Shown: one piece after another, positions 41,246 to 62,179 of the stretch
How the letters are laid out: every line of letters starts with the position of its first letter
How positions within the stretch are numbered: position 1 is the first letter of the stretch
NCBI RefSeq assembly: GCF_000374065.1
Contig: NZ_KB893268.1
Span: 2,273-66,272, forward strand
DNA: 64,000 nucleotides
Direction of reading: 5' to 3'
From: Spirosoma luteum DSM 19990
Lineage (GTDB): Bacteria; Bacteroidota; Bacteroidia; Cytophagales; Spirosomataceae
Program-made: the position numbers and the translations under genes
Notes under the pieces: generated by a model
Seen by the model: the letters and a program-made list of their open reading frames with translations, nothing else
Databases searched by the model: none
Told to the model about the DNA's origin: nothing

Positions 41246-42544
41246 TTAAGTAGCCACTGGCCGATCCCGGCGCGTCAGGCTGTGAATGAGTAGCCAGGCC
41301 GTCAGGTAGGTACAGCCGCAAACGGTGAACAGCACGTTGTAGCCACCAGTCAGATTACCGACAGCCTTGTAGTTGTCGAGTAAGGTGCCAACCAGCAGGG
41401 GAAAGAAAATACCGCCAACAGAGCCAGCCATGCCGGCAATGCCTACGACCGAACTCACCGTTTGCCGGGGAAACAAGTCGGAGGCCAGCGTGAAAATATT
41501 CGTGGCCCACGCCTGGTGCAGGGCTACGGCCAGGCTAATCAGGCCCACGGCCACCCATACGTCCGTAACAAATTGAATGCTTATCACCGAAATTTCCAGC
41601 AGGGCAATGCCCAGTAATACCGTTTTGCGGGCTCGCAGCACCCGCCAGCCCCGCCGGATTAATTGCGAGGAGACATACCCCCCACCAATGCTGCCCACGG
41701 TGGTAGCCAGATAAATCAGCATCAGTTCCAGACTCGGCTTTTTCAGGTCAAGGTTAAAGGTCGACGCAAAATACGAGGGCAACCAGAATAGGAAAAACCA
41801 GTAGATGGGGTCGATAAGGCCCTTGCCCACGATTAAAGCCCACGTTTGGGGGTATCGAAAGAGCTGGGTCCAGCGAACAGTGGTGGCCGATTCAACCGGA
41901 TCACGACCAGCAGTAATGTACGTGAGTTCGGCGGCACCAAGCCGCTTTTGGCGGGCCGGAACATCGTAAAAGATGATCCAGAAAATAAGCCACACGAAGC
42001 CCAGCGCCCCCGTAATCCAAAACACTTCCTGCCACCCGTACTGGCTCAAAATCCAGGGTACGATGAGCAGGGCGACCACCACCCCCACGCTGGTACCAGC
42101 GTTGAATAGTCCCGTAGCCAGCGCCCGCTCTTTCTGCGGAAACCATTCGGCCACGGTTTTTACCGCGGCCGGGTAGTTACCGGCTTCGCCCAAACCAAGC
42201 CCCACGCGGGCCACGCCAAACCCAAAAGCTGAGCGGGCCAGGGCGTGCAGCATACCCGCCACACTCCACCAGACAATCGTAACGGCGTACCCAATTTTGG
42301 TGCCTACTTTATCCACAAACCAGCCCATCACCAGCAAGCCCACTGCATAAGCCGCCGTAAAGGCAATGACAATCCGGGCAAAGTCGCTTTCGGTCCAGCT
42401 AAACTCAATTTCCAGCAGGGGCTTGAGCAGGCCAATAATCTGCCGGTCGAGGTAGTTGATGGTCGTGGCCGTAAATAATAGCACCACAATACCCCAGCGG
42501 TAGATGCCGGTGGTGGTAGTTTTAGGGGCCTGTGAGGTGGTCAT
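41246..42544 (-). CDS. MFS transporter, hexuronate/aldonate (ACS) type
   Basis: The 432-residue protein has twelve predicted helices and belongs to the anion:cation symporter family with ExuT/DgoT-type members. Blocks include TINYLDRQIIGLLKPLLE at helix 1, GLGLGEAGNYPAAVKTVAEW, FNAGTSVGVVVALL and the GFVWLIFWIIFYDVP loop. It is the last gene of the sugar-acid operon, 87 bases after the aldolase. It would import an aldonate, hexuronate or 2-keto-3-deoxy acid. Given the Tat-exported dehydratases upstream, a keto-deoxy acid is the inferred substrate. Confidence 0.87.
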   Translation of the reverse strand: MTTSQAPKTTTTGIYRWGIVVLLFTATTINYLDRQIIGLLKPLLEIEFSWTESDFARIVIAFTAAYAVGLLVMGWFVDKVGTKIGYAVTIVWWSVAGMLHALARSAFGFGVARVGLGLGEAGNYPAAVKTVAEWFPQKERALATGLFNAGTSVGVVVALLIVPWILSQYGWQEVFWITGALGFVWLIFWIIFYDVPARQKRLGAAELTYITAGRDPVESATTVRWTQLFRYPQTWALIVGKGLIDPIYWFFLFWLPSYFASTFNLDLKKPSLELMLIYLATTVGSIGGGYVSSQLIRRGWRVLRARKTVLLGIALLEISVISIQFVTDVWVAVGLISLAVALHQAWATNIFTLASDLFPRQTVSSVVGIAGMAGSVGGIFFPLLVGTLLDNYKAVGNLTGGYNVLFTVCGCTYLTAWLLIHSLTRRDRPVAT

Positions 42545-42590
42545 GCTAGCTAAGGTTTAGGGGCTTCTATTTGGGTTTTCATCATTCCGC

Positions 42591-42662
42591 TTTTGTCCTT
42601 CCGGGAAAGAAAGAATCGCCAGCCTGTTAACTCAAGATTCATCGTTCCCCGGAAGGACAAAA
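42591..42662 (-). terminator. Hairpin with one arm inside the aldolase gene
   Basis: TTTTGTCCTTCCGGG (42591-42605) and CCCGGAAGGACAAAA (42648-42662) are exact reverse complements 42 bases apart. The right arm encodes the last codons of the aldolase (FVLPG) and the left arm lies past its stop. It could attenuate read-through into the transporter gene or protect the 3' end of the message. Confidence 0.5.
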
Positions 42663-43297
42663 ACCTGAAATTTTTCTATGAATCCTACGAAATGATTTTT
42701 CAGCCCATCCCAGTTTTTTTCGTCAATTAACTGCTTGTCAAAAAGATGACTGCCAATGCCGAAACCATCGGCACCGGCGGTCAGAAAATCGCCCATGTTT
42801 TGTCGCGTAATACCACCCGTTGGCAGTAGTTTAATCTGATTCAGGGGCGCTTTTATATCCCGAATATAGCCGGGGCCGAGCTGGGTAGTTGGAAATACTT
42901 TTACCATACTTGCCCCCAGCGACCAGGCTTTATAAATTTCGGAAGGGGTAAAGGCACCGGGGAAAATAGGGATGTCTTTTTTTACGCAGGTTTTCAGTAC
43001 TTTTTTATTAATAACCGGCGTAACGATAAACTGAGCCCCAGCCGCTAAGGCCAGGTTCAAATCGGCTTCGGAGCAGACGGTGCCTGCGCCAACATTCAGC
43101 GTGTTGGGGTATTGCTGGCGGGCCGCCCGAATCATGCTTTCGGCACCGGGGGTGTTCATGGTTATCTCTATGGTAGTTAACCCCGCTGCCTGATAAACGG
43201 GTAGTATCTGGCTGACATCTGCGGCCGAAACATGCCGGATTATGCCCACAATAGGCATTTTATAAAATAAAGGCCACGAGAAGGCAGAATCACTCAT
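42632..43297 (-). CDS. eda: KDPG/KDPGal aldolase (Eda/DgoA family)
   Basis: This class I aldolase splits 2-keto-3-deoxy-6-phospho-gluconate or -galactonate into pyruvate and glyceraldehyde-3-phosphate. Signatures are GIIRHVSAADV, TTIEITMNTPGAESMI (catalytic Glu), VGAGTVCSEADL, FIVTPVINKKVL, and the Schiff-base Lys in ASMVKVFPTTQLGPGYIRDI followed by LLPTGGI. Length is 221. Its ATG overlaps the dgoK stop by four bases. Pairing with dgoK points to the galactonate version of the reaction, but these enzymes often act on both epimers. Confidence 0.93.
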   Translation of the reverse strand: MSDSAFSWPLFYKMPIVGIIRHVSAADVSQILPVYQAAGLTTIEITMNTPGAESMIRAARQQYPNTLNVGAGTVCSEADLNLALAAGAQFIVTPVINKKVLKTCVKKDIPIFPGAFTPSEIYKAWSLGASMVKVFPTTQLGPGYIRDIKAPLNQIKLLPTGGITRQNMGDFLTAGADGFGIGSHLFDKQLIDEKNWDGLKNHFVGFIEKFQVFVLPGNDES

Positions 43298-44325
43298 TCG
43301 GTTGGTTGTTTGATAAGCTGTTGCTGAAACAGGAGTAGTTGCCCCATGCTGGCCGCCCGATCAACCAGATCGGCGGGGGCGGTGTGGGTACGGTGGGTAA
43401 GGTGGAGTTCGCTGATGGCGAGTTCGTACAGGGCTGACAAGTTGCTGCCCCCGCACAAAATGAGCGGGCATTCGTTTGTCGATTGAAGCTGGTTTAATTC
43501 GGTACCAATCAGCAGGCCACTCAGGTAAAAGGCATTTTCTTCCTTACTGATTTTGTCAAATAACTGATTGGTTCTGACGCTGAATAATGTATTCAGAATA
43601 TTCGATGAGGCTGTTTGACGAACGCCTTCTTGAAAGGCTTTAACAGCGGTATCCGGTAAGTCGGAATAAGGAAAATAGTCAACCGAGTCTTTTAAAATAC
43701 TGTGTCGGCGCATCACATCAAAAATCTCACCAGTCATGTAGGTCTTAAAATGTACTAACTTCTCATGCTGAATGTACAAATGTTTGGAATGGGTACCCGG
43801 AAAAATGCAGCGTGCATCCTGCACAGTATGGCCCGATAAGGCAAGCAATTTTATCAGGCCGATAAGCTGCGTTTCCTCGCCCCGCATAACATCCTGGTCA
43901 CTGCGAACGCCCGAAATTAGAAACAAATCGTGCCGGAAACCGGGGCGGCTTTCGAACCGTTGCATACTGGCCTGACAGCCATCCGTGGGGAAGGGCAGGG
44001 TGGCATACGGTACTTCGGCCATGCCAATGGACGACGACGCCATACCCGATACCATCACCGGCACATCCGTCAGAGTAGTCGATAGCTGCGTTTCCAGGCG
44101 GCTGATGTGCTTTTGCAGCACCTGCATGAAAAAACCGTCCCGGGAAATACCCTGCTGTTTGGCAGCGGTTTTCCAATCATCAAATATCGCCGATATACCC
44201 ATATCTGACCGGACTTCACCCATGCAGACGTGCGTGGTCAGGTCCATAAGCTGCAACCGGAACGATGACGTTCCCCAGTCGCAGCACAGCAGGTGGTTTG
44301 TTATCCGGTTTTCGGGGTATTGCAT
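43294..44325 (-). CDS. dgoK: 2-dehydro-3-deoxygalactonokinase
   Basis: DgoK phosphorylates 2-keto-3-deoxygalactonate at C6. The 343-residue protein has the family's actin/hexokinase-like fold with CCDWGTSSFRLQLMD (phosphate loop 1), MVSGMASSSIGMAEVPY, FISGVRSDQDVMRGEETQLIG (given here as LISGVRSDQDVMRGEE) and IFPGTHSKH, and the adenosine loop LILCGGSNLSALYELA. Overlaps the aldolase gene by four bases and lies 11 bases after the PQQ dehydrogenase gene. Works with the aldolase as the cytoplasmic end of the pathway. Confidence 0.93.
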   Translation of the reverse strand: MQYPENRITNHLLCCDWGTSSFRLQLMDLTTHVCMGEVRSDMGISAIFDDWKTAAKQQGISRDGFFMQVLQKHISRLETQLSTTLTDVPVMVSGMASSSIGMAEVPYATLPFPTDGCQASMQRFESRPGFRHDLFLISGVRSDQDVMRGEETQLIGLIKLLALSGHTVQDARCIFPGTHSKHLYIQHEKLVHFKTYMTGEIFDVMRRHSILKDSVDYFPYSDLPDTAVKAFQEGVRQTASSNILNTLFSVRTNQLFDKISKEENAFYLSGLLIGTELNQLQSTNECPLILCGGSNLSALYELAISELHLTHRTHTAPADLVDRAASMGQLLLFQQQLIKQPTE

Positions 44326-44336: not shown

Positions 44337-46562
44337 TCAGTTGATGGATGATGAAGGAAGCGCAAAAGATACATACGACCCACCGGATTTTAGCCCGTAT
44401 CGGGTGCCTCCGCAGGCAATAGCCACGTACTGTTTTCCAGCTACGCTGTACGTAATGGGCGTAGCAAACCCACCGGCGGGTAGTTTCTGTTCCCAGATTA
44501 TTTTACCCGTTTTCCGGTCAAACGCACGCAGTTTCTGGTCGTAGGTGGCAGCAATGAAAAGTAACCCGCCCGCCGTAACGAGCGGTCCGCCATGATTCTC
44601 GGTACCGGTATTCATCAGACCTTTCTGGACTAACTCCGGGTATTCGCCCAGGGATACTTGCCAGCGGTATTCGCCCGTGTTGAGGTCGATGGCGTTGAGC
44701 GTGCCCCAGGGTGGTTTTATGGCCGGGTAACCGTCCTGATCCCTAAACTGGATGTTGCCGTTGTTGAGATAGGGCGAAACATACGGAAAATCGGCGTTTG
44801 GCGCCGTGTCAAGGGTATTGGTTGCCTGGTGCATATCGGCAGGCACTGGGCGGGCAGGCTCAGTATGCAACAGGAAGTTAACGATGGCTTCGCGGTCATC
44901 CTTAGGAAGATGGCTGAAGGACGGCATCCGGCCCCGACCCGTTGTCAGCAGGGCGTTAATCTGGCTTCGGTCTAAGCGGTTGCCCACGTTGGCGAGGTTA
45001 GGATACGCCTGACTGGTGCTGGCAACGGCCTTGTTCTCTTTGCTGATGGCATGACATGCGGCACAGTTGGTGTTGAACAAACTGGCTCCCCGCGTGAGCG
45101 CGACACCGTCAGACGGTGTCTGTGTGTTTCGCATTTTGAGCCACCACAGCATGTTGTTGCCGTTGACGTAAAAAACGCCTTCCGGGTCGGCAGCGGTGCC
45201 ACCCCATTCGGCTCCGCCCCCTACGCCAAAAATAAGGGAGCCTTCTTCACTGGGGGGCAGCCATTTATTGCCCTGTCGGCTGTTTTTGAACCGGTCCAGC
45301 ACATACGCCCGTGCTTCGGGTGTGCGGCTGGTAATGGTTCTTTCATCGAGGTGCTGAAAGGCAAACGGGGCTGGTTTGGCGGGTACGGGTTGCGTGGGCC
45401 AGGGTTTTTCGCCGGGCAGGGCGGGGGAGGTGGGTGCCGCCATTTCGCGAATGGGAAACAGCGGTTTGCCCGTCTCACGCTCGAACACGAACACATAGCC
45501 ATCTTTGGTAGCCTGGGCTACGGCATCAACTTTCTTTCCATTGTGGCTTACGGTGAGCAGGTTGGGGGGGCAGGGAATATCCCGGTCCCAGAGGTCGTGG
45601 TGAACAGTCTGGAAATGCCAGATGCGTTTGCCCGTTTTGGCATCGAGGGCCAGCAGGCAGTTGGCAAACAGGTTTTTACCCGCCCGGTCTCCGCCATAAA
45701 AATCGACCGAAGGCGAGCCGGTCCCGGCAAAGACGATACCCCGTTTTTCGTCGACCACCATACCGGCCCAGCAGTTGGCTCCGCCAATTTTTTTGTAAGA
45801 GTCTTTCATCCAGGTTTCGTAGCCATACTCGCCCGGCAGCGGAATGGTGTGGAACGTCCAGGCTAGCTTGCCCGTACGAACGTTAAAGGCCCGGATGTTG
45901 CCCGGTGGCGCGTCGCCCCCTTCGTTCATGCTGGAACCGACGATAATCAGGTCCTGATAAATCACACCCGGCGACGTATTGCGAATGGATAGGTTACTCA
46001 CATCATGGCCGAGCGTTTCTTTATTGCCCAGCCCTTCGTGCAAATCCACTTCACCGTTTTGGCCAAAACTGTTGATTAATTCACCCGTCTGGGCATTCAC
46101 GGCATAAAGCGAAGCTCCGGACGAATACAGAATACGTTTATCCGCACCACCATTCCAGTACGTTACGCCCCGCAGTGGGTGAAAACGGGGTTGTTTGTCA
46201 GGGTTGGAAAACGGGTCAAATTGCCAGATTCGCCTGCCCGTAGCCGCATCAACGGCAAAGAGTTTATGGCGGGGCGTAGTGCCGTAAAGGACACCATCGA
46301 CCACAATGGGCTGGCACTGAATATCCATACCCCGTTTGGTCGAATCGTTGTTTTCGCCCGTGTCAAACGTCCAGGCCAGTTGCAGGTTTTTAACGGTTTG
46401 GGTATTAATCTGGGTCAGGGGTGAATACCGGTTTCCGGCAGCGTTACCGCCGTACGTTGGCCAGTCCTCCCGGGCGGGGGCTGGCCCATAGCTGGAAACC
46501 AGTCCCAACGCCCCAATCAGCAGGATAACAGCAAAGCAGCGTTGATAAACTGTTCGGTTCAT
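44337..46562 (-). CDS. PQQ-dependent aldose dehydrogenase with cytochrome c domain
   Basis: A signal peptide (cleavage near APAREDWP) directs this 741-residue quinoprotein to the periplasm. The eight-bladed propeller has the typical blocks WPTYGGNAAGNRYSPL, AWTFDTGENN, ATGRRIWQFDP, VNAQTGELI and ETGKPLFPI. A cytochrome c domain is inserted near residues 480-575, with heme motif NCAACH near 498-503 and the distal Met in RGRMPSFSHL; the last propeller blade follows (AFDRKTGKIIWEQKLPAGG). The architecture matches membrane-independent sugar dehydrogenases of the Gcd/pyrroloquinoline type. It probably oxidises an aldose to its lactone and passes electrons to the respiratory chain. Its ATG overlaps the preceding gene's stop. 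Confidence 0.9.
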   Translation of the reverse strand: MNRTVYQRCFAVILLIGALGLVSSYGPAPAREDWPTYGGNAAGNRYSPLTQINTQTVKNLQLAWTFDTGENNDSTKRGMDIQCQPIVVDGVLYGTTPRHKLFAVDAATGRRIWQFDPFSNPDKQPRFHPLRGVTYWNGGADKRILYSSGASLYAVNAQTGELINSFGQNGEVDLHEGLGNKETLGHDVSNLSIRNTSPGVIYQDLIIVGSSMNEGGDAPPGNIRAFNVRTGKLAWTFHTIPLPGEYGYETWMKDSYKKIGGANCWAGMVVDEKRGIVFAGTGSPSVDFYGGDRAGKNLFANCLLALDAKTGKRIWHFQTVHHDLWDRDIPCPPNLLTVSHNGKKVDAVAQATKDGYVFVFERETGKPLFPIREMAAPTSPALPGEKPWPTQPVPAKPAPFAFQHLDERTITSRTPEARAYVLDRFKNSRQGNKWLPPSEEGSLIFGVGGGAEWGGTAADPEGVFYVNGNNMLWWLKMRNTQTPSDGVALTRGASLFNTNCAACHAISKENKAVASTSQAYPNLANVGNRLDRSQINALLTTGRGRMPSFSHLPKDDREAIVNFLLHTEPARPVPADMHQATNTLDTAPNADFPYVSPYLNNGNIQFRDQDGYPAIKPPWGTLNAIDLNTGEYRWQVSLGEYPELVQKGLMNTGTENHGGPLVTAGGLLFIAATYDQKLRAFDRKTGKIIWEQKLPAGGFATPITYSVAGKQYVAIACGGTRYGLKSGGSYVSFALPSSSIN

Positions 46563-47551
46563 GGAGCAGTAGTCTGATAAAATTCGTATTTGATTGTCCA
46601 GGTCACTTCCTCACCGGGCTTGGCTTTCAGGTGAATGTACGGCTCCGGGCAGGAGGTAGTAGCGCAGGCCCAATACACTAATTTCTCCAGGGGACGATCC
46701 CCGGTGGTGTGTATCCCGGCTCCGGTTTTCAGGTTTTCGATGCGTAAGTCATACGAGTCGACTGTTGGACCGAAGCCCTGTAACCCCGCGCTGTACACCT
46801 GCTCCCGTTCATTCAGGTTGCGGGTATAGGTCAGGGCTTTATTCTGGGCAACAATGGTCGTGCCAAATCCTTTACCCTCGCCCGTTACCGCAAACGGAAA
46901 CCGGATGGCTACGGTTGGCCCGGTGGGTTGCTGGTCGATTATCCAGAAATTGTGATTATAAACACTGGTTTCGATAGGCTTCTGCCCCGTGTTTTTCAGC
47001 CGGTGTTCCAATACCAGTTCGGGTTTGCCCTTCACCAATCTCACAGTTTTGCTGTATTGGTACCCGTAGCCGCTGGCGTCGGTCAACGCATGCGTAAAGG
47101 TTACCGCGTCGGTGAACTGGGCATGCTTCTGCGTTTTCACTGTCCGTTTCCCATAGTTGGCCACGGTATGCACGGTAGCAAAAGCATACGGCTTCTCGTT
47201 GGCTCTCCGCAGAGCACCCACGCCGATTTTTACGAACGTATCACCGGGTCTAGCTTCGGCAAAGCCCAGGGGGGTGAACTCTTCGGCGGGGCCGTTGATG
47301 GCATCGTGGAAAAAAGGATCATAGTGTTGAAACCACTGCTCAATGTAGCTATGCCCGTTATAGTCAAGGTTTTTAAACGCCCCTGCCCAGTCGAAGCGCG
47401 TACCCCGGTAATACCCCTGCGCGGTATCGGGCAGGTACAGCGTAGTGGTAATCAGCCCGTTGGAGAGCGTGATTTGGGGTGGTTCGGCGGTGGGGCGTAT
47501 TAGACCACACAACCCAAAACCGAGGAGTATTGCCGGAAGTGCCTTTTTCAA
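46559..47551 (-). CDS. Secreted galactose-mutarotase-like protein
   Basis: The 330-residue protein has a signal peptide (MKKALPAILLGFGLCGLI) and a beta-sandwich of the galactose-mutarotase-like type: LITTTLYLPDTAQGYYRGTR near the start, LEHRLKNTGQKPIETSVYNHNFW in the middle. The C-terminal third is TonB-independent beta-structure with EKLVYWACATTSCPEPYIHL. The exact family is not recognised. Its stop overlaps the PQQ dehydrogenase start (ATGA), so the two are translated together. A role in supplying the correct anomer to the dehydrogenase, or in binding sugar, is inferred from this coupling. Confidence 0.6.
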   Translation of the reverse strand: MKKALPAILLGFGLCGLIRPTAEPPQITLSNGLITTTLYLPDTAQGYYRGTRFDWAGAFKNLDYNGHSYIEQWFQHYDPFFHDAINGPAEEFTPLGFAEARPGDTFVKIGVGALRRANEKPYAFATVHTVANYGKRTVKTQKHAQFTDAVTFTHALTDASGYGYQYSKTVRLVKGKPELVLEHRLKNTGQKPIETSVYNHNFWIIDQQPTGPTVAIRFPFAVTGEGKGFGTTIVAQNKALTYTRNLNEREQVYSAGLQGFGPTVDSYDLRIENLKTGAGIHTTGDRPLEKLVYWACATTSCPEPYIHLKAKPGEEVTWTIKYEFYQTTAP

Positions 47552-47616: not shown

Positions 47617-49089
47617 TCAGAGATTCGGGTTAATCGACGTGTCCGTGTACGGCAGCGGAAACCAGTAATCTGCCTTTGTGATGGGCTTGATTGGTTGTAA
47701 ATCGTCGGGGCTTTTGGCGGCATTGGCGGCTTCGACGCGCTCCAGCCGGATCAAATCGAACCAGCGGGTGCGCTCGCAGGCAAACTCCCAGGCCCGTTCC
47801 TGCACCACGGCATCGGCAAACTGGGTAGCCGACAGGCCGTCAGCAGGGGAGAGAGCCTTCGTTCCGGCGGGCAAACCCCGCAGCCGAACCTGGTTCAGTG
47901 CGTCATAAGCAGCCTGGTCGGGGCCGCCCGTTCCCCTCGCTTTGGCTTCGGCATAAATGGTCAGCACGTGGGGGTAGCGCATCATTACTGATGGCAGCGA
48001 ACTGCTGGAAGTTACCACGTTTCCTTTGATGTACCATTTCTTGTAGTACGGGTGCCGGGTCAGGCTTTGCTGCCAGGGGATTTTGGTGGCTCCCAGCCCA
48101 AACTCCGTGCGGAATGTCGCGTCTTTACGGGGACCTTCGGGAAAGTTTTTAAAGAAATTAAGTTCCGAAAACATATCGTCCCAGCCACCTTCTTCGCCGG
48201 GCATGGTTGTATTGCCGTAGGTGGCATTGGCCGTGCCGCTGCCGCCCGCAAACCCACTAATCTGAAAAACGGCTTCGGGCGTACCCAACACGGCTGGGTC
48301 ATTTTCAAAGACAGCCGCAAAGGTGGGTAACAACTGAAACCCGTATTGGGCACTGTTATCAATAACTTCTTTGGCTTTGGCCGCAGCCAGGTCATACTTG
48401 TCGGTTTGCTTGAGGGGCCAGCCCGCCATCGTCAGATAAACATCCGCCAGAAACGCTTTGGCTGCTCCGGCATTGGGCCGACCCGGATCGCGCTTGGCAT
48501 TGGGCAGCATGGTTTCGGCCTTTTTCAAGTCAGACACTATCAGGTTATAGACCTGTTGGGGCGACGATTTTTTGATGGTCAGCAAACTGTCCGAATACTC
48601 ACCCGACAGCACCAGCGGAATATTGCCGTAAAAACGGGTCAGCCAGTAGTACGAAAAGCCCCGGATAAAGTACGCTTCGCCCGCAATGATGTCGATGGTA
48701 GCTTTGGTGCCAACGGTTTTTGCGTAATTATTAATCACGTTATTGGCCCCCTGAATGGCCTTGTAGCAGCCATTATACACCGCCCCCGACCGCTGGTTGG
48801 TGGTCGATACGTTGAACTGGTCGAACTCGCGCCAGTCGGCTTTGTTACTGGCTGGGTGCGTGGTTACGTCATCGGCACCCAGCACAGCGGCATTGGCCGA
48901 GGGGTGAATGAATCCCATCGACCACTGCGAGGCAAGCCCTTTGTAGGAACCCGTCAGGGCGGATTCCAGTCCGGCCTGTGTGGACAGAACGTTGGGGCCG
49001 TACAGCAGCCCGGTGGTATCTTCTTCGAGGTATCCTTTGCAGCTCGCTACCAGCATAACGGCCAGGAAAATTATCGCTATCTTTTTCAT
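47617..49089 (-). CDS. SusD/RagB-family outer-membrane lipoprotein
   Basis: This is the lipid-anchored glycan- or nutrient-binding partner of the SusC transporter encoded 19 bases upstream. The lipobox is LVASCKGY with Cys17. The helical TPR-like SusD core shows GSYKGL, YKAIQGANNVINNY, IIAGEAYFIRGFSYYWLTRFYGNIPLV and the C-terminal WEFACERTRWFDLIRLERVE. It ends YTDTSINPNL. Length is 490. This is a canonical SusD (PF14322/PF07980 type). It sits on the cell surface and would cap the SusC barrel. Confidence 0.93.
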   Translation of the reverse strand: MKKIAIIFLAVMLVASCKGYLEEDTTGLLYGPNVLSTQAGLESALTGSYKGLASQWSMGFIHPSANAAVLGADDVTTHPASNKADWREFDQFNVSTTNQRSGAVYNGCYKAIQGANNVINNYAKTVGTKATIDIIAGEAYFIRGFSYYWLTRFYGNIPLVLSGEYSDSLLTIKKSSPQQVYNLIVSDLKKAETMLPNAKRDPGRPNAGAAKAFLADVYLTMAGWPLKQTDKYDLAAAKAKEVIDNSAQYGFQLLPTFAAVFENDPAVLGTPEAVFQISGFAGGSGTANATYGNTTMPGEEGGWDDMFSELNFFKNFPEGPRKDATFRTEFGLGATKIPWQQSLTRHPYYKKWYIKGNVVTSSSSLPSVMMRYPHVLTIYAEAKARGTGGPDQAAYDALNQVRLRGLPAGTKALSPADGLSATQFADAVVQERAWEFACERTRWFDLIRLERVEAANAAKSPDDLQPIKPITKADYWFPLPYTDTSINPNL

Positions 49090-52187: not shown

Positions 52188-53420
52188 TTACCAATCCACT
52201 ACCGAGCCATCCAGTGCATTGTACGACTCAGGGTTTTTCCAGTCGTGGCCGATTTTATCTTTCATCAGGGCTTCGTCCAGTTCGACGCCGAGGCCCGGTC
52301 CTTTGGGAATGAGAACTGTACCGTCTGGTTGTAGCTTAAACGGATTCTTGAGGTAACCTTCGCCCAAGGAGACCTGCTCCTGAACCAGAAAATTGGGTAC
52401 GCTGGCTGCCAGGTTAAGCCCGACGGCCAGCGAGATGGGCCCCATGGGATTGTGGGGCGCAATGGGTACGTAATAGGCTTCGGCCATGCCCGCAATGATG
52501 CGACCCTCCGTAATACCACCCGCGTGGCACAGATCGGGTTGAACGATGCTGGCGGCACCTTTCTCCAGTATTTCGCGGAAGCCCCATTTCGTAAAAATGC
52601 GTTCGCCGGTGGCAATAGGCAGGTGGGTACCCTTCGCAATGTCGACCATGGTATCCACATTCTGCGCCTGGCAGGGCTCTTCCACGAACATGGGTTGATA
52701 GGGTTCCAACTGCTTAATGAGCACCTTCGCGGTCTGGGGCGAAATATTGCCGTGAAAATCAATGGCAATGTCCATATCGGGGCCGCCGGCTTCCCGCAGC
52801 GACGCAAAATTGTCGATGGCGTACTTAATGAATTGGGGGTTTTCGACAATATTGGCCGGGTTCTTATGCGCGACGCCCGTTTTGATAACGGTGAATCCCA
52901 GCGCCTTTTGCTGCTTGATTTGTTCGGCGTTGCTGGCGCGCCCGTACACCCGAACGCGGTCGCGGGTGGGGCCGCCCAGCAGTTCATAGACGGGTACATT
53001 GAGGAGTTTACCCTTGATGTCCCACAGCGCGTGGTCAATGCCGCTGAGCGCCGAGGTCAGGATGGGGCCACCCCGATAAAAGGCGTGTCGGTAAATGGCC
53101 TGCCAGTGGTGTACTACCGCTCGCGGGTCTTTGCCAATCAGGTAGGGCTCCACTTCCTTTATGGCTGTCTGGATGGTGAGTGCCCGCCCTTCGAGCAGGG
53201 GTTCGCCCAGGCCGTACACACCCACATCGGTGTGGATTTTCAGGAAGATCCAGCGCGGTTTGACCAGGAAGGTTTCCAGCTTGGTGATTTTTACTTTGCT
53301 GTAATCCCGAAACGGGGCGGGGTTGGCGGCATAGGATGATTCGGGCAGGAGCAGACCCGTACCGGCCATCCCCAGTACGGATTGGATGGCGGAACGCCGG
53401 GAAAGTTTGGGCGATTTCAT
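52188..53420 (-). CDS. dgoD: Galactonate dehydratase-like enolase, Tat-exported
   Basis: This enolase-superfamily (mandelate racemase) enzyme of 410 residues matches D-galactonate dehydratase. Metal and catalytic residues are visible: the Asp221-x-His223 pair in AIDFHGN, VEEPCQAQ, GERIFTKWG, PDLCHAGGITE, and the catalytic His in APHNPMGPI, then LVQEQ. The N-terminus MKSPKLSRRSAIQSVLGMAG is a twin-arginine signal ending near SYAANP, so the enzyme is exported folded to the periplasm. The classical DgoD is cytoplasmic. It dehydrates an aldonate to the 2-keto-3-deoxy acid, the substrate of DgoK. Confidence 0.85.
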   Translation of the reverse strand: MKSPKLSRRSAIQSVLGMAGTGLLLPESSYAANPAPFRDYSKVKITKLETFLVKPRWIFLKIHTDVGVYGLGEPLLEGRALTIQTAIKEVEPYLIGKDPRAVVHHWQAIYRHAFYRGGPILTSALSGIDHALWDIKGKLLNVPVYELLGGPTRDRVRVYGRASNAEQIKQQKALGFTVIKTGVAHKNPANIVENPQFIKYAIDNFASLREAGGPDMDIAIDFHGNISPQTAKVLIKQLEPYQPMFVEEPCQAQNVDTMVDIAKGTHLPIATGERIFTKWGFREILEKGAASIVQPDLCHAGGITEGRIIAGMAEAYYVPIAPHNPMGPISLAVGLNLAASVPNFLVQEQVSLGEGYLKNPFKLQPDGTVLIPKGPGLGVELDEALMKDKIGHDWKNPESYNALDGSVVDW

Positions 53421-55031: not shown

Positions 55032-56564
55032 CTATTTATCCCACCAAACGCGGGTATCCAGGTCATTGGGTCCCTGCCGCTTGACGGCCTCGTTTAGCTG
55101 GGCCGAATTGACCACAATCTCACTATCGGGGTAGGGCAGCCGGCGGATGAAGTCGCCTTTGATTTCGGAGCCGGGGTAGGGGTTTTTCTTCAGAGCGGGG
55201 AAGCCACTACGCCGGAAGTTAGCCCAGGCTTCGGAGCCATCTAAAAAGGACGCTACCCAATACTGCGTGTTGATTTGTTCCAGTGCTTTGCCCATATCCA
55301 GCGGATGGGCATCCAGGTAGGCTTTTATGGCGGCTTCCGGAATCGGACTTCTGTACGATGCCATCTGCTCCATATTGGCCCGAATGCCCTTTGCAAAATA
55401 GTCAGCTGCCGTACCGGCCACCCAGCCGCGCACGGCTGCTTCGGCCAGCAGAAGCTGCACCTGCGCGTAGGTAATATGGAATTCGGGTGCGTCCAGGGCC
55501 AGCACCGTTGTCAGGTTCACCTGCGAATAATCCCACAAACTTGCCACGCCATTTGCCGCGAAGGTGGACGTTATCGTTACGTCGTTATAGCCCACGGGCA
55601 TGCCTATCTGCACCGCCGGGTCCGATGAAGCGCGTGCCGGTACCTGTTCCGGTCCACCCTTGGCCCCCACATAACGCACCGCAAACACGGCCAGCCGGGG
55701 GTCGTTGTTGTCTTTCAGGTAATTCACAAACGGAGCCGCGAGGTAGAAATTGGTTTTTTCGCGGGCCGCTAAGTGGTTGGCAATGTAGTTGTTGTAAATG
55801 GCCGTGTGCCGGATAGTAGAGTTGTCTGCGTTGGACTGAAATACCCCACCCGCCACGGCCTTCTTGACGTAAGCCTGCGCCGTTGTGCCATCCACTTTGG
55901 TCAGGCGCATGGCGGCCCGGAGCATAAACGAATAGCCGAGTTTTTTCCAGTTGGCCACATTACCTCCGTACAGAATATCCGTAACAACCGCAGGCTGCTT
56001 GGGGTCGAGTGCTGCCGATGCTTCCTCCAGTTCCTTCAGGATATCTTTATAAATATCCTGCTGCGGGTCGTATTTGGGCGTGATAATCTCGGTTGTGTAC
56101 CCCTGACCGGCTTCAACGTATGGAATATCACCGTAGGTATCGGTCAGAATCATGAAGGCGTAGGCTTTCCAGATACGGGCTGCGTTATAGGTGTTTACCT
56201 GGAGTGGGTCGCCTTTGGTCTGGTCCAGTACGGCAATCAACTGCTTCACTACGTTGCGGTAGAAATTAGTCCAGACCAGGGGCGTGTTACCGTTATTGTT
56301 CTGGTTGTAATTCCCGCCCGACAATGAACTGCCGTAGGGCGTAATGATTTGCTGCACAATCGGAAACGTGTAGGTCAGCATGCCCAGCGTAGACCCCCCA
56401 TCAAGGTAGGTTGTACTGACAATCGCTTTATTCAGCACCAGCGACGGAGCCAGCGATGTTGGGTCTACTTTGTTGATATTGACTTCATCGAAGCCCTTGT
56501 CGCAACCCGTCAGCAGGCTCAGTGAGAGCAGTAGGATGAGGGTATAATTTAGTTTCGTTTTCAT
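55032..56564 (-). CDS. SusD-like_2 outer-membrane lipoprotein
   Basis: This is the surface lipoprotein partner of the second SusC. The lipobox is SLLTGCDKGFDEVN with Cys21. It has the SusD-like_2 pattern rather than the canonical SusD: VDPTSLAPSLVLNKAI, QQIITPYGSSLSGGNYN, RIWKAYAFMILTDTYGDIPYVEA, ILKELEEASAALDP, GWVAGTAADYFAKGIRANME. Length is 510. This subfamily is called the nutrient-binding RagB group and is not tied to glycans alone. It lies 18 bases after its susC gene. Confidence 0.92.
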   Translation of the reverse strand: MKTKLNYTLILLLSLSLLTGCDKGFDEVNINKVDPTSLAPSLVLNKAIVSTTYLDGGSTLGMLTYTFPIVQQIITPYGSSLSGGNYNQNNNGNTPLVWTNFYRNVVKQLIAVLDQTKGDPLQVNTYNAARIWKAYAFMILTDTYGDIPYVEAGQGYTTEIITPKYDPQQDIYKDILKELEEASAALDPKQPAVVTDILYGGNVANWKKLGYSFMLRAAMRLTKVDGTTAQAYVKKAVAGGVFQSNADNSTIRHTAIYNNYIANHLAAREKTNFYLAAPFVNYLKDNNDPRLAVFAVRYVGAKGGPEQVPARASSDPAVQIGMPVGYNDVTITSTFAANGVASLWDYSQVNLTTVLALDAPEFHITYAQVQLLLAEAAVRGWVAGTAADYFAKGIRANMEQMASYRSPIPEAAIKAYLDAHPLDMGKALEQINTQYWVASFLDGSEAWANFRRSGFPALKKNPYPGSEIKGDFIRRLPYPDSEIVVNSAQLNEAVKRQGPNDLDTRVWWDK

Positions 56565-56582: not shown

Positions 56583-59500
56583 CTAAAATTTCACATTCAA
56601 ATTGAACCCGACACTCCGCGTAGGCGGTAGACCCGGCCAGAAGTCCAGGCCGACGCCGTTGTCTGATGATACCAGGGCTTCTTCGGGGTCCATGTTCTCG
56701 GTCCACTTCTTGATAATCAGTACGTTGTTGGCTACGGCGTTCAGACGTATTCCCTTTATGAAAAAGCCGCTGGGCAGTAGTTTGGTGAAATCGTAGCCGA
56801 GCGAAATCTGACGTAGTTTCCAGAAACCGGCACTGGTCACAAAATCTTCATTGATACCCAACGGATTGATGGATTCGTAGAATGGCTGCACCGCCGTCTG
56901 GGTTTTGTTGACTTCGCCGTTTGGGTTCACCCCATCGCCAATCACATAGCCCACATCGCGGCCTGGCAGCGTTCGTTTCGAAAGACCGTGCCGCACGTAG
57001 TTGATGTTCCGTCCGGCAATCATGTTAAAGCCCAGTTTGAAGTCAATCAGGACCGACAGGGCAATTCCCCGATAGGTGAACGTGTTGGTAATGCCGCCAA
57101 AATATTTAGGCAGGGCATTCCCCACGTTTTGCAGCGTGTTGTTCCGAAGCGGCAACCCGCTTTTGGCGTCAAAAACCTGCCGCCCCTGGGCATCGCGCAG
57201 GTAGGTGAAGGTGTATAGCTGCCCAATGGGCTTGCCAACCACCTGCGCCAGATTGCGCCCCCCACCGCTGCTGACGGTGATGATGGTGTCATTGGGCGAC
57301 AGGCCCAGCTTGAGCACTTTAGAGGTGTTGTAGGATGCGTTGGCACTCACATCCCACCGGAAGTCGGTACTCGAAACCGGTGAGAACGTCAACAGCATCT
57401 CCAGACCCTGATTCGCGCTCCGGCCCACGTTGATGAGCTTGCTGGTGTAGGACGAGGCATCGGAGATTTGGGCCGCCAGAATCTGGTCGTCGGTGGTTTT
57501 GTGGTAATACGTTAAATCGAACCCAACCCGGTTCTGGAACAATTTCAGTTCCATACCCACCTCGGCTTCCTGAATGCGGAGTGGGCGCAGGTTTTTGTTG
57601 GGTACTACGCTGGCATTGATACCCCCCAGCGGTACAAGTTGCCCCGCCGGGTTAGGAAACGAGTTGTTGTCGACGGAGTAATATAACGCGTTGGAATACG
57701 GAGCCACATTGTCTGAACCCACCTGGGCGTAGGCCGCCCGTAACTTGCCGAACGACAGCCAGGAAGGCAGGTTATCGAAGGCCTGCGAGAAAACAAAACT
57801 GCCCGTTACGGATGGATACAGGATGCTGCGATTTTGGGGAGCGAGCGTCGAAAACCAGTCGTTCCGGGCCGTGGCGCTCAGGTACAGAAACTCTTTGTAG
57901 GAGATCGTAGCCGCCCCGTAGAGGGAGTTAATGTTTTTTTCGGCCAACTGGTAGATGGGGTTTTTAATCCGCCCATTGGCCACCGTATATAGCCCCGGCT
58001 GCACAAAATCCTGCACCGTTACGCTGTTATAATCGTTGCGGGCGTAGCGGGCGTTACCGCCAAGGTTAACATCCACGCCAATCTTGCCGAACGTTTTGTT
58101 AACAGTCAGCAGGAAGTCGATGTTGCGCTCCAGGTTCTGGCGCACGTCCTGCGTATAGGAGCCATTTACGTAGCCAACGGGTGCCTGCGGAATGGGCGCG
58201 TAACCATTGGGAATGTTATAATCCTGGTTGCGGACGTACGAATCCTGGGCAATCCGGCCCTGCAACGACAGCCAGTCGGTAAACTGGTATCGGAGGGCGA
58301 TGTTGCCGAAGAGCCGATCACGATTGATGTTCTCGAAGTGACGACTCATGGAGTAGTACGGGTTGTTGCGCACCAGAAACCGTGAAAACACGAACTCATC
58401 GCCGTTGGGCTTGGTCTGATTGTCGCGCAGGGCGTCGAACGGCATGGAGTTGGCCAGCGTAAAGATGACGGTCGAAACCGAGAAATCCTGGGTGTTCAAC
58501 TGGGGCGGGTTGATGTTATTTTCCTTCGAGTAGTTGATATTTCCCGACGCCGTCAGCCGATTGGTAATGTTTTGGGTAAAGCCGAGGTTAATCACCTTCC
58601 GGTTGAAGGTATTATTCTCCATGATTCCCTTGTTGTCGGTGTTGCCGAACGATAGGCTGAACCCACCTTTTTCCGTGTTATTGGCTACCGTAACCGTATT
58701 GGTGAAGTTCGTACCCACGCGGTAAAACTGTTTTACCCGATTGTAGACCGGCTCATACGGGTACGTCTTATTGTCGAACAGCACCTGCGTCATGCCCGGC
58801 TGAAACTTCTCACCAAAGCTCCACACACCCGATGTCGGGTTAGGGGTAGTAGGTCGTTTGCCGCCTTCGCCCTGCCCGTATTCGTACTGAAAATCAGTGT
58901 AGTCCAACGGCGTGTCGGTGGTGAAGTTGGCGTTGTAGGTCACACCGAAGCCTTTGCCGCTCCCCCGGTTTTTGGTCGTAATCATCACCACGCCGTCCTT
59001 GGCCCGTGAGCCATACAGAGCGGCAGCGGTGGCCCCTTTCAGCACGGTCATGGTTTCAATATCGTCAGGGTTGATGCTGCTCAGGCCATCGCCCCCGTCG
59101 GAGCTGTTGGCCGCCCGCGTGCCAAAATCCCCGCCCAGAGCGTAGTTTGAGTTGTCAATCGGTACGCCGTTTACCACAATCAGCGGGGAGTTGTTGCCAC
59201 TAAACGACGACTGCCCCCGAATGCGGATTTTAGCCGTTCCGGCGGGGCCGGTTCCCATCGTAGTGATGTTTACCCCCGCCATTTTACCCTGCAACCCGCT
59301 CACAAAATTAGGCGTGCGGTTCACGTTAATCTGCTCGGCGTTGACCGTAGCCGTGGCGTAGCCCAGCGTTTTGGATTCGCGCTTAATACCCAGTGCTGTA
59401 ACGATTACCTCGTCGATAGCTTTGGCATCTTCTACTAATGTTACATCGATGATGGAGCGGTTGTTGACCGGCACCGTCTGACTGAGGTAGCTGATATACG

Positions 59501-59714
59501 AAAAAACCAGCGACGCATTGTTGGGCGCGTTGATGGCGTATTTCCCATCGGCATCGGTAGTGGTTCCGGTAGAGGTACCTCCCACCAGCACGTTTACGCC
59601 CGGTAACCCCTGGTTATCGGCTCCGGTAACAGTACCGGTAACACGGTTTGTCTGGGCGTATCCAAAGCCCACACATAACAGCAACAAGACAAGTAATCCA
59701 GTAAACTTTTTCAT
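56583..59714 (-). CDS. SusC/RagA-family TonB-linked transporter (second)
   Basis: The 1043-residue protein has a signal peptide (cleavage near GYAQT), a CarboxypepD_reg-like domain (RVTGTVTGADNQGLPGVNVL), a TonB box and plug (DEVIVTALGIKRESKTLGYA, MAGVNITTMGTGPAGTAKIR, GSRAKDGVVMITTK) and a barrel ending VGFNLNVKF. The TALGIKRESKTLGYA plug signature is typical of SusC proteins paired with SusD-like_2 lipoproteins. It imports ligand with TonB energy. The gap upstream holds a repeat and a possible weak LacI half site. Confidence 0.95.
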   Translation of the reverse strand: MKKFTGLLVLLLLCVGFGYAQTNRVTGTVTGADNQGLPGVNVLVGGTSTGTTTDADGKYAINAPNNASLVFSYISYLSQTVPVNNRSIIDVTLVEDAKAIDEVIVTALGIKRESKTLGYATATVNAEQINVNRTPNFVSGLQGKMAGVNITTMGTGPAGTAKIRIRGQSSFSGNNSPLIVVNGVPIDNSNYALGGDFGTRAANSSDGGDGLSSINPDDIETMTVLKGATAAALYGSRAKDGVVMITTKNRGSGKGFGVTYNANFTTDTPLDYTDFQYEYGQGEGGKRPTTPNPTSGVWSFGEKFQPGMTQVLFDNKTYPYEPVYNRVKQFYRVGTNFTNTVTVANNTEKGGFSLSFGNTDNKGIMENNTFNRKVINLGFTQNITNRLTASGNINYSKENNINPPQLNTQDFSVSTVIFTLANSMPFDALRDNQTKPNGDEFVFSRFLVRNNPYYSMSRHFENINRDRLFGNIALRYQFTDWLSLQGRIAQDSYVRNQDYNIPNGYAPIPQAPVGYVNGSYTQDVRQNLERNIDFLLTVNKTFGKIGVDVNLGGNARYARNDYNSVTVQDFVQPGLYTVANGRIKNPIYQLAEKNINSLYGAATISYKEFLYLSATARNDWFSTLAPQNRSILYPSVTGSFVFSQAFDNLPSWLSFGKLRAAYAQVGSDNVAPYSNALYYSVDNNSFPNPAGQLVPLGGINASVVPNKNLRPLRIQEAEVGMELKLFQNRVGFDLTYYHKTTDDQILAAQISDASSYTSKLINVGRSANQGLEMLLTFSPVSSTDFRWDVSANASYNTSKVLKLGLSPNDTIITVSSGGGRNLAQVVGKPIGQLYTFTYLRDAQGRQVFDAKSGLPLRNNTLQNVGNALPKYFGGITNTFTYRGIALSVLIDFKLGFNMIAGRNINYVRHGLSKRTLPGRDVGYVIGDGVNPNGEVNKTQTAVQPFYESINPLGINEDFVTSAGFWKLRQISLGYDFTKLLPSGFFIKGIRLNAVANNVLIIKKWTENMDPEEALVSSDNGVGLDFWPGLPPTRSVGFNLNVKF

Positions 59715-59730
59715 GGGTAAAGGGGATTTT

Positions 59731-59746: not shown

Positions 59747-59761
59747 GTTTGCAGTTTATCC

Positions 59762-59833: not shown

Positions 59834-59843
59834 CGGAAGCTGT

Positions 59844-61085
59844 TTACCAGTTATGAATTGCTCCGTCGGGGCTTTTCAGAACGGGATGCGGAAACTTCGT
59901 GTTTTCGGTTACTTCCAGCACGAGCGTGGCTTTCTTCGGGTCGAATTTTACACCTAAGCCCGGTTCGGGATTGAGGTAAAGTTTGCCGTTTTTGAAATTG
60001 ATAAAATCGTCATTGAAGTAGGCCGGGCGTTCGGGTTCGCCCCCGCCCAGTTCCATCAGGCACCGCATGGGGCTACTGGAACCTAGCGTATGCACCAGGG
60101 CGGCTGTTGACAGCGGGCCGGTAAAGTGCGGAATCATGCCTACATAGTGCGTCTCGCACATGGAAGCCAGTTTCTTGAACTCCGAGATGCCGCCCGTGTT
60201 GGGCAGCGTGAAGCGGGTGTAATCAATGAGCCGGTTCTCGATTAACTCGTTCGAGTCCCAGCGGTCACCGAATTGCTCGCCGACGGCAATGGGTACGGTG
60301 GTCATGCTTCGTACGGTTTGGTAAACCGCCGGGTTTTCTGACCGGATGATGTCTTCTACGAAATAAGGCTCTAAGTTTTCGAGGGCGCGGCATATTTTCA
60401 CTCCCTCGGTGGTATCGAAGCGGGTGTGGAGGTCGATGGCCCAGTTGCCATTGCCACCCACGGCCGCGTCGATGCGCTTGCAGAGGTCGATGGTCTTTTT
60501 GGCGTTCTCGTAGAAATCGAAGGGTTGATCGCCGTTGCCGCCAGTGGGACCAATGCGGTAAGCCCGCAGTCCGGCTTTAATGCAATCCTGCGCCCGGCCT
60601 TCTTCGGTGGTTGCTTTGGAGGCCCGGAACCCGGTGGCGTAACACTCAATATAATCCCGCGTGGCTCCACCGAGGAGTTCATACACCGGCACGCCGAGGG
60701 CTTTTCCTTTCAAATCCCACAGGGCCATGTCGATAGCCCCCTGAGCGTGGATTTTCTCGCGGCCCGGCGGGTAAAACATACCCCGGTAAAGCCGCTGCCA
60801 GATGTCTTCGATGCGAAATGGATTCTCGCCAATAATCATCTGCGCCAGTTGCTCCACCATGTCTTTGGAGCCGCCCTCGCCAATGCCTACAATGCCCCCA
60901 TCGGTCTGAATCTCGACGATGCCCCTCGCCTGGTTGAACAGAGGCTTGGTATAACCGGGGGCCGCATAATACCGGATTTTGGTGATCTTCAGTTTGGGTG
61001 CTGTCGCAGCCGACAGGAGCGGAAGACCGGCCAGAGCCGCCGTTGAGCCGAGCAGGGCTGATTGTAAAAAACGTCTGCGTTGCAT
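59844..61085 (-). CDS. Enolase-superfamily acid-sugar dehydratase, Tat-exported
   Basis: This third mandelate-racemase-family protein of 413 residues opens with a twin-arginine signal (MQRRRFLQSALLGSTAALAG, cleavage near SAATAP). Enolase blocks are MALWDLKGKALGVPVYELLGG, the metal pair Asp218-x-His220 (WAIDLHTRFDT), YFVEDIIRSEN, AVGEQFGDRW and MIPHFTGPLST. It lacks the specific DgoD and ManD signatures. A gluconate-, galactonate- or galactarate-type dehydratase is likely, but the substrate is not assigned. It is the first gene of the operon, directly behind the operator at 61110. Confidence 0.85.
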   Translation of the reverse strand: MQRRRFLQSALLGSTAALAGLPLLSAATAPKLKITKIRYYAAPGYTKPLFNQARGIVEIQTDGGIVGIGEGGSKDMVEQLAQMIIGENPFRIEDIWQRLYRGMFYPPGREKIHAQGAIDMALWDLKGKALGVPVYELLGGATRDYIECYATGFRASKATTEEGRAQDCIKAGLRAYRIGPTGGNGDQPFDFYENAKKTIDLCKRIDAAVGGNGNWAIDLHTRFDTTEGVKICRALENLEPYFVEDIIRSENPAVYQTVRSMTTVPIAVGEQFGDRWDSNELIENRLIDYTRFTLPNTGGISEFKKLASMCETHYVGMIPHFTGPLSTAALVHTLGSSSPMRCLMELGGGEPERPAYFNDDFINFKNGKLYLNPEPGLGVKFDPKKATLVLEVTENTKFPHPVLKSPDGAIHNW

Positions 61086-61109
61086 AGATGTTAAGGTAAG
61101 GAATAGTCA

Positions 61110-61125
61110 GCTTAATCGTTTAAGC
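61110..61125 (-). promoter_or_regulatory. LacI-type operator before the sugar-acid operon
   Basis: GCTTAATCGTTTAAGC is a near-perfect palindrome with the central CG usual for LacI-family operators. It starts 24 bases upstream of the enolase 3 ATG and directly abuts a -7-like CTTCTTTG on the minus strand (61125-61132), a repression geometry. A sister site is at 62206. Confidence 0.6.
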
Positions 61126-61138
61126 AAAGAAGTGAAAC

Positions 61139-62179
61139 TCAGTGTTGATGGATTCGTTTTGGTTTCGACGAGTTTCGGGCCACTAGTTCGGCATTCATGA
61201 GTATCTGAGCGGGTTCATCGGGAGACTCTTTCAGCTTTTTTACCAGCAGGCTAACGGACGTTTGGCCCAATAGGTCAATGGGTTGTTTCAGGTAAGTAAT
61301 GGGGCAGTAATAAAGGTCAAATGCTTCGGCCTGCCCAAAACTGACGATGGCTACATCATCCGGTACGTTCAACTTTTGTTCGTTCAGGTAAATCAGTCCA
61401 TTTATTGCCAATCCGTAGGTGGCAAAAATCAGCGCATCAACGGGTTTATCGGTCTTTGTCAGTTCATCAATAGCCACCTTCGCTTCCTGTTCGATGTGGG
61501 TGAATCTGATTTTTTTCAGATATCCTTTCTGAAAGGGCAACCCGCCATCTTTCAGCGCGTCCTGATACCCCCGTATCCGCTCCTGCATATGGAACATAGC
61601 CGATTTGTAGGCAATCATACCAATGCGTCTGTAGCCGTTGGTAATCAGGTGACTGGCCCCGTCGTAAGCAGCCCGGTAATGGTCGGTCGACACAAAATCC
61701 GTTTGCATATCCGGAAAATACCGATCCAGCAGTACAAACGGGATATTCTTTTCTTTCAGCAACTGTACCTGTTGGGCCGAGTCTTCGGCCGACACGATAA
61801 TAAACCCATCTACCTGCCTGTTAATCAATACATTCAGCAAATCCCGCGACTTGTCGGCGTTCTCATCCGAGCTGCCGATAATGACCGTATAACCATTACG
61901 TTTGGCTTCGTCTTCAACAATCCGGGCAATATTGGCGAAAAAGGGGTTCGATATATCGGCGATAATCAGGCCAATAGTCTGTGTTTTTCCGCTTCGTAAA
62001 CTCTTCGCAACGTGATTGGGCTGGTAATTCAGGGCGATGGCTATTGCCCTGATTTTGGTGGCAATTTCCGGCCCTACCCGACTCTCTTTCTCTTTGCCGT
62101 TCAGTACATACGATACCAAAGCCGTAGAAACGCCCGCTTCCTGAGCTATGTCCTTTAACGACGTTCTTTTTGCACTCAT
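61139..62179 (-). CDS. LacI-family transcriptional regulator
   Basis: The 346-residue protein has the LacI helix-turn-helix at residues 6-55 (SLKDIAQEAGVSTALVSYVL, then NYQPNHVAKSLRSGKTQTIG hinge) and a periplasmic-binding-like sensor domain (GLIIADISNPFFANIARIVE, SSDENADKSRDLLNVLINRQ, VDGFIIVSAE). It is a local repressor, or possibly activator, of the downstream sugar-acid genes. Its effector is probably a pathway sugar acid. It likely regulates itself through the operator at 62206-62221. Confidence 0.92.
   Translation of the reverse strand: MSAKRTSLKDIAQEAGVSTALVSYVLNGKEKESRVGPEIATKIRAIAIALNYQPNHVAKSLRSGKTQTIGLIIADISNPFFANIARIVEDEAKRNGYTVIIGSSDENADKSRDLLNVLINRQVDGFIIVSAEDSAQQVQLLKEKNIPFVLLDRYFPDMQTDFVSTDHYRAAYDGASHLITNGYRRIGMIAYKSAMFHMQERIRGYQDALKDGGLPFQKGYLKKIRFTHIEQEAKVAIDELTKTDKPVDALIFATYGLAINGLIYLNEQKLNVPDDVAIVSFGQAEAFDLYYCPITYLKQPIDLLGQTSVSLLVKKLKESPDEPAQILMNAELVARNSSKPKRIHQH

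Follow-up and report, generated by a model that had tools for sequence, protein, structure and literature searches.

A candidate De Ley-Doudoroff-type pathway with predicted periplasmic oxidation and dehydration in Spirosoma and its relatives

A 64-kb stretch of contig NZ_KB893268.1 (hereafter the window) carries a cluster of 13 genes that appears to encode the uptake, oxidation and breakdown of sugars or sugar acids. The genes all lie on the minus strand and run from position 62179 to 41246 in the order lacI, D1, susC1, susD1, D2, D3, susC2, susD2, mutarotase-like gene, quinoprotein gene, kinase gene, aldolase gene and carrier gene, with D1–D3 encoding dehydratases. Intergenic gaps are at most 147 bp, adjacent genes overlap by 4 bp at two junctions, and lacI lies 53 bp from D1. 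This confirmed the gene set named in the original prediction for this DNA, namely twelve genes and a LacI regulator on the minus strand. The genome is Spirosoma-like and 6.6 Mb in size; in the closest named record, Spirosoma spitsbergense, the quinoprotein is 90% identical. We assigned the proteins to families by Pfam and NCBIfam profile matches, as follows (Tat, twin-arginine translocation; counts are homologs with a Tat signal):

61139..62179, minus: LacI-family regulator, first gene of the cluster (PF00356 and PF13377)
59844..61085, minus: D1, enolase-superfamily dehydratase, predicted to be Tat-exported; signal at about 60999-61085 (MR_MLE; Tat 31/31)
56583..59714, minus: SusC1, TonB-dependent outer-membrane transporter (Plug and CarbopepD_reg_2)
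55032..56564, minus: SusD1, outer-membrane lipoprotein (PF12771, PF12741)
53529..54884, minus: D2, dehydratase near the mannonate/gluconate dehydratase subgroup, predicted to be Tat-exported; signal at about 54780-54884 (PDB 4IHC, 3T6C, 3TW9; Tat 24/24)
52188..53420, minus: D3, galactonate dehydratase of DgoD type, predicted to be Tat-exported; signal at about 53328-53420 (NF010624; Tat 42/43)
49109..52099, minus: SusC2, TonB-dependent outer-membrane transporter (PF00593, PF07715)
47617..49089, minus: SusD2, outer-membrane lipoprotein (PF14322, PF07980)
46559..47551, minus: galactose-mutarotase-like protein, periplasmic, Sec-type signal (AlphaFold model and fold comparison; N-terminus judged by eye)
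44337..46562, minus: quinoprotein aldose dehydrogenase of Gcd type with an inserted cytochrome c, Sec-type signal (PF01011, cytochrome c)
43294..44325, minus: 2-keto-3-deoxygalactonate (KDGal) kinase of DgoK type, cytoplasmic (PF05035, 209.8 bits; no Tat signal)
42632..43297, minus: 2-keto-3-deoxy-6-phosphogluconate/galactonate (KDPG/KDPGal) aldolase, cytoplasmic (TIGR01182 above cut-off; no Tat signal)
41246..42544, minus: major facilitator superfamily (MFS) carrier with a hexuronate-type rather than DgoT-type site (best PDB match DgoT, 6E9N; site residues; paralogs)

The cluster thus encodes a galactonate dehydratase, a KDGal kinase and a KDPGal aldolase together, the combination that marks the De Ley-Doudoroff route. 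Glycoside hydrolase and lyase families were absent from the 13 proteins, so that despite its two SusCD pairs the cluster does not qualify as a polysaccharide utilization locus. Neither uronate isomerase nor uronate dehydrogenase was recognized in the locus by Pfam or NCBIfam. The genome has two PF00920 matches.

To characterize the dehydratases, we compared them with E. coli DgoD. D3 scored 442 bits against NF010624, the NCBI galactonate dehydratase model (cut-off 311), and kept 7/7 of the positions compared (D183, H185, E209, E235, D258, H285 and E310), which we take to be the metal-ligand and catalytic positions of DgoD. D2 lacks one of the seven and fell below the NCBIfam ManD equivalog cut-off (405.5 versus 550 bits); its closest PDB entries, 4IHC, 3T6C and 3TW9, are presumably gluconate-type enzymes of the mannonate dehydratase subgroup. 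D1 retains the metal ligands and both histidines, and lacks D258 and E310. According to excerpts of a study of Zobellia, an enzyme annotated as DgoD is thought to use gluconate there (PMC5613140), indicating that the DgoD name alone does not fix the substrate.

We then turned to the N-termini of the dehydratases. Sugar-acid dehydratases of the enolase superfamily are usually treated as cytosolic. D1, D2 and D3 each begin with twin arginines, an uncharged hydrophobic stretch and a cleavage-like site. Among homologs of more than 55% identity, this Tat signal was present in 31/31 D1, 24/24 D2 and 42/43 D3 sequences. These counts, which include the window's own D2 and D3, were restricted to complete unique open reading frames (ORFs), reducing 39 D1 sequences to 31, 51 D2 to 25 and 102 D3 to 82. 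The sole D3 exception, L069 from Spirosoma telluris, has an altered N-terminus (loci and genomes are given L and G numbers), and one D2 match below 55% identity had no Tat signal. The L069 locus itself looks degraded or duplicated, with a short D2 and repeated pieces of susC2, quinoprotein and carrier genes.

By contrast, DgoD relatives at about 48% identity from other Bacteroidota start directly at the mature protein, and a Tat-like start was found in just 1 of 39 (L021, genome G275). Across 395 genomes of the phylum, D3 matches occurred in 18 genomes, three of exported type and 15 at 43-50% identity; 14 N-termini were readable among these 15, and none was Tat-like by eye. Alignments to the closest solved structures begin only at about residue 57 of D1, 48-50 of D2 and 43 of D3, indicating that the signals have been added to the catalytic fold. 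A maximum-likelihood tree united the D3 proteins of exported type in one group, with support of 99/92 for 42 rows and 98/93 for 44 rows including two divergent members; the alignment included the signal-peptide columns, and the window's D1 and D2 and L021 were long branches. TatC was found in 21/21 genomes of the genus, including the genome of the window. No Tat signal was detected in the kinase (48), aldolase (37) or quinoprotein (52) ORFs or in 35 carrier orthologs, and a laxer version of the test was passed by 11/160 flanking ORFs. Spurious Tat signals were rejected as an explanation because of the conservation and the control clade without a signal.

Judged by sequence, D1–D3 have the features of Tat substrates (twin arginines, hydrophobic stretch, cleavage-like site and a translocase in the genome), and a periplasmic localization of the dehydratases is well supported. 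The original prediction had placed dehydration outside the cytoplasmic membrane and had named cytoplasmic dehydratases as the finding that would speak against it; conserved signals, cytosolic relatives lacking them (1/39 excepted) and the presence of TatC all point toward export. As a separate observation, a DgoD relative of 63% identity, also of exported type, lies at 9546-10796 of L126 (G180:C69:44000-63900), where it adjoins three sulfatase genes with no quinoprotein, meaning that exported enolase-superfamily enzymes exist in other settings.

We next examined the carrier. In DgoT, as given in the part of the structural paper available to us, Y44, Y79 and R47 contact the carboxylate, D46 and E133 serve proton coupling, and Q164, Q264, S370 and N393 contact the hydroxyl groups (PMC6532931). 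Y44, D46, R47, Y79 and E133 were kept in 35/35 locus carriers. In the same 35, the galactonate-hydroxyl contacts Q164, Q264, S370 and N393 were changed to T, K, T and G, respectively, whereas four carriers beside signal-less DgoD relatives (L022, L081, L082 and L084) kept all DgoT contacts. A DgoT-like aldonate carrier was rejected on these grounds, and the expectation of the original prediction that the carrier does not simply move aldonates agrees with the lack of a galactonate-type site in its sequence.

Paralogs of the carrier (45-65% identity) have nearly the same binding site, differing mainly at positions 164 and 370, and one of them, L159 (60% identity), has the locus pattern TKTFG, which is thus not exclusive to the locus. 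Genes for UxuA, UxaC or altronate dehydratase lie beside the paralogs in 5/8 regions (L166, L167, L168, L170 and L172). Of the remaining three, L169 and L171 contain DUF7133-cytochrome c proteins, and L173 contains genes for a GH3 hydrolase and an FGGY kinase. Site residues and paralog neighbors together place the carrier in the hexuronate-carrier branch rather than the galactonate branch. Hexuronates and 2-keto-3-deoxy acids form rings, and aldonates are open chains. This shared character as ring-forming acids makes a 2-keto-3-deoxy acid a plausible substrate, and its import fits the site evidence without being proven by it.

Two further observations concern these paralogs. In L169 (7782-9080 and 5416-7737) and L171 (7195-8496 and 4811-7282), carriers with the site TKAFG each lie next to a DUF7133 protein bearing cytochrome c, which may be a further case of a carrier matched to an outside oxidase. 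The genome of the window also has hexuronate loci, L166 (G000:C1) and L167 (C15), with paralogous carriers, UxuA, GH67, UxaC and a PfkB kinase; this kinase could phosphorylate 2-keto-3-deoxygluconate.

A search for the same gene order in Cytophagales, suggested in the original prediction, found it in other members of the order; loci with this layout are present in Spirosoma, Fibrisoma and Dyadobacter. D3 of at least 66% identity was present in 18/291 genomes of the order, with a twin-arginine start in 18/18 and a quinoprotein match within 15 kb in 17/18. Such a match accompanied at least 1/35 other DgoD-type matches (G257), with at most three candidates scored per genome. The divergent Tat-bearing D3 of G275 is counted among the 35; counted as exported type, it changes the former figure to 17/19. 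For 20 of the 35, surroundings of 20 kb were retrieved. Kinase and aldolase genes adjoin DgoD in 9/20 of these regions, a quinoprotein homolog occurs in one (L115), a distant SusC homolog in six, and the mutarotase-like gene or the locus carrier in none.

In 38 named loci, the genes recognized at more than 45% identity were all on one strand; D3, quinoprotein, kinase, aldolase and carrier genes followed in this order in 29, and the carrier was present in 35. D1 was detected in 12/241 genomes of the order and in 3/296 of the phylum, all three within the order; a quinoprotein match lies no more than 16.1 kb from D1 in 11 of the 12, G004 being the exception. Transfer to Flavobacterium was considered and set aside: in the D3 tree, the sequence from 'Flavobacterium sp. 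SUN052' (L037) falls among those of Spirosoma and Rudanella, and a misnamed record is as likely as transfer.

The quinoprotein retains W404, D466 and K493 (E. coli Gcd numbering) and a CxxCH haem motif in 50/50 sequences; we take D466 to be the catalytic aspartate, and W404 and K493 to contact pyrroloquinoline quinone (PQQ). By eye, the N-termini of the quinoprotein and of the mutarotase-like protein are both of Sec type. PqqE over cut-off was found in 0/21 genomes of the genus and PqqC over cut-off in 0/148 genomes of the order, two of which had weaker matches; in both searches, the control panel also contained no passing genome. To our knowledge, E. coli does not synthesize PQQ. Since no PQQ-synthesis gene passed its cut-off, PQQ for the quinoprotein is probably scavenged from outside, being taken up from neighbors. 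The original prediction had called the pathway complete, which probably does not hold for the cofactor. Quinoproteins of this type are frequent in the order (at least 93/291 genomes at E 1e-100, often in multiple copies), and its members seem to depend on an external source of PQQ.

No Pfam family matched the mutarotase-like protein; its AlphaFold-predicted structure aligns with galactose mutarotases, whose fold it shares. Its gene is present in 19/38 named loci, including few of those from Dyadobacter, and is thus probably not essential. In one relative (L129:14738-16195, G177), the locus includes a gene for an apiosidase-like hydrolase, located between susD2 and the mutarotase-like gene.

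As for regulation, the operator-like pattern TTAAnCGnTTAA, which was picked after the site before lacI had been seen, has just two exact occurrences in the window:

62208..62219, no strand: operator-like palindrome TTAATCGGTTAA, 28 bp before lacI, exact match
61112..61123, no strand: operator-like palindrome TTAATCGTTTAA, 26 bp before D1, exact match

With up to one mismatch, the window contained five matches versus 2.8 expected. In relatives, sites with up to one mismatch were compared to mononucleotide shuffles; they were found before D1 in 16/27 and before D3 in 8/44, with shuffle means of 0.4. These sites suggest that the LacI protein controls the dehydratase genes and fall short of indicating one regulon. 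A CcpA/GalR-type operator, TGNAANCGNTTNCA, was rejected as a candidate, its single one-mismatch match in the window being at 10835, outside the locus.

Taken together, these observations make it probable, as far as sequence can tell, that the locus encodes a De Ley-Doudoroff-type pathway in which oxidation and dehydration are both periplasmic. We infer the substrates, the transported species, the order of flux and the induction. In the proposed scheme, the SusCD pairs would carry a small sugar or sugar acid across the outer membrane. The quinoprotein-cytochrome c, with PQQ probably taken from neighbors, would oxidize an aldose (of galactose and/or glucose type) to its lactone and acid and feed the electrons into the respiratory chain; the correct anomer may be provided by the mutarotase-like protein. 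The three Tat-exported dehydratases would convert several aldonic acids into 2-keto-3-deoxy acids, D3 acting on galactonate (a role on gluconate being possible) and D2 on substrates of gluconate or mannonate type. The MFS carrier would then import the 2-keto-3-deoxy acids, and the DgoK-type kinase and the aldolase would yield pyruvate and glyceraldehyde 3-phosphate.

To a more specific version we give about even chances. Here the locus would represent a Cytophagales strategy with an exported upper half of an Entner-Doudoroff-like pathway: a quinoprotein with scavenged PQQ and three Tat-exported dehydratases would channel several aldoses, among them C2 epimers yielding an identical product, to one or two periplasmic 2-keto-3-deoxy acids, and a carrier drawn from the hexuronate family would import the product alone. 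If this is true, a shared sugar is converted into a compound that few neighbors can take up.

Several results weigh against periplasmic oxidation and dehydration as proposed. No lactonase was recognized among the cluster proteins by Pfam or NCBIfam; lactones can also open spontaneously. The quinoprotein does not keep Gcd positions H262, N355 and H775, so the oxidized sugar may differ from that of Gcd and cannot be named. Two loci, L046 and L070, lack D3 and retain the kinase, and in L070 D1 is the only recognized dehydratase, so that galactonate alone cannot explain the pathway. Three genomes (L049, L059/L121 and L120) lack D3 as well as the kinase; coupled loss of the two was not used as evidence because L046 and L070 keep the kinase. 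The Tat test also passed E. coli DgoT and the mutarotase-like protein of L128 and is thus not perfectly specific. Neither the exported-type D3 of G180 nor the divergent D3 of G275 (47% identity), which has a Tat-like start, lies within 15 kb of a quinoprotein match, and in G004 the gene set is split over the genome. Operator-like sites were rare before lacI (2/20), D2 (2/23), susC2 (1/38) and the quinoprotein gene (1/49) of relatives, and none with up to one mismatch was found before susC1 (8), the mutarotase-like gene (23) or the carrier gene (37). Finally, a hexuronate-type carrier could simply carry hexuronates.

We weighed three other explanations. An ordinary De Ley-Doudoroff pathway, with aldonates imported by the MFS carrier, dehydration in the cytoplasm and N-terminal extensions that do not export, is unlikely. 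The same families make up a cytosolic E. coli operon and occur together in 9/20 control regions around signal-less DgoD relatives, and Zobellia, in the excerpted account, combines a periplasmic gluconolactonase and gluconate import with a DgoD annotated as cytoplasmic (PMC5613140). Against it stand the Tat features conserved in all three dehydratase families, the solved structures that begin to align only near residues 57, 48 and 43, and a carrier without the aldonate contacts. Also improbable is a scheme in which exported dehydratases go together with a carrier for hexuronates or some other acid, the 2-keto-3-deoxy acid entering otherwise or being released. This would account for the paralogs adjoining UxuA, UxaC or altronate dehydratase in 5/8 regions and for a paralog site that differs mainly at 164 and 370; however, the carrier accompanies 35/38 named loci, no uronate gene was recognized among the few unlabeled ORFs inside them, and the carrier gene of G004 lies about 170 bp from D1. 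That the exported enzymes act on non-hexonates, such as aldobionic acids or glycan acid ends entering via SusCD, is doubtful: SusCD pairs usually take up oligosaccharides, one relative has an apiosidase-like hydrolase inside its locus (L129) and an exported 63% identical DgoD relative sits beside three sulfatase genes (L126), but the window's 13 proteins include no glycoside hydrolase, and D3 keeps the compared DgoD positions and passes the family cut-off.

The proposed pathway with periplasmic oxidation and dehydration can be set beside several known systems. The De Ley-Doudoroff/DgoDKA systems (the E. coli dgo operon and the signal-less Bacteroidota loci) draw on the same enzyme families, presumably with identical chemistry. 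Their dehydratase has no signal and the neighboring carriers have a DgoT site, whereas here the dehydratases appear to be exported and the carrier site is changed; a cytoplasmic dehydratase, judging by the signals, and a DgoT-type aldonate carrier are the features of that route missing from this locus. The enzymes and presumably the chemistry are those of that route, and the predicted compartment and the carrier differ; the locus is best classed as a variant of the De Ley-Doudoroff route that exports the dehydration step, which upholds the modified route of the original prediction as far as the signals indicate.

In pseudomonads, Gcd oxidizes sugars in the periplasm before transport. Sugar acids are also taken up by binding-protein transporters after conversion of sugars to acids, according to a partial text (PMC12076931). 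In such systems the aldose is oxidized outside and the product imported, as proposed here; here dehydration also appears to take place outside, shared by three dehydratases. Alginate loci of Bacteroidota, in the portion of the paper available, share SusCD uptake, a periplasmic monomer, MFS import, and kinase and KDPG aldolase inside, but there a polysaccharide lyase makes an unsaturated monomer, in place of the oxidation and dehydration of a simple sugar proposed here (PMC12472053). Hexuronate loci (UxaC, altronate dehydratase or UxuA, ExuT-like carrier) contain paralogs of the locus carrier, but no uronate isomerase or dehydrogenase was recognized in this locus.

Among the open-licence full-text matches listed, there was no report of an exported galactonate, gluconate or other aldonate dehydratase; the original prediction likewise knew of no described system with this full layout. 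The main text of a transcriptome paper on Dyadobacter HH091 did not mention PQQ, gluconate or galactonate. If true, the proposed pathway predicts a 2-keto-3-deoxy acid carrier within the hexuronate carrier family, makes sugar oxidation in Spirosoma, Dyadobacter and Fibrisoma dependent on PQQ from other bacteria, and suggests that whole cells could make 2-keto-3-deoxy acids without taking up the sugar. The gluconate genes of Zobellia, as far as the excerpts of the study go, offer a likeness within Bacteroidota, with lactone and acid formed outside and a DgoD-type dehydratase; there, however, GntT imports gluconate itself and the dehydratase is annotated as cytoplasmic (PMC5613140). In schemes of this kind, as in the same excerpts, the aldonate marks the border between outside and inside (PMC5613140); if the locus works as proposed, the acid is dehydrated ahead of its import and this border moves one step.

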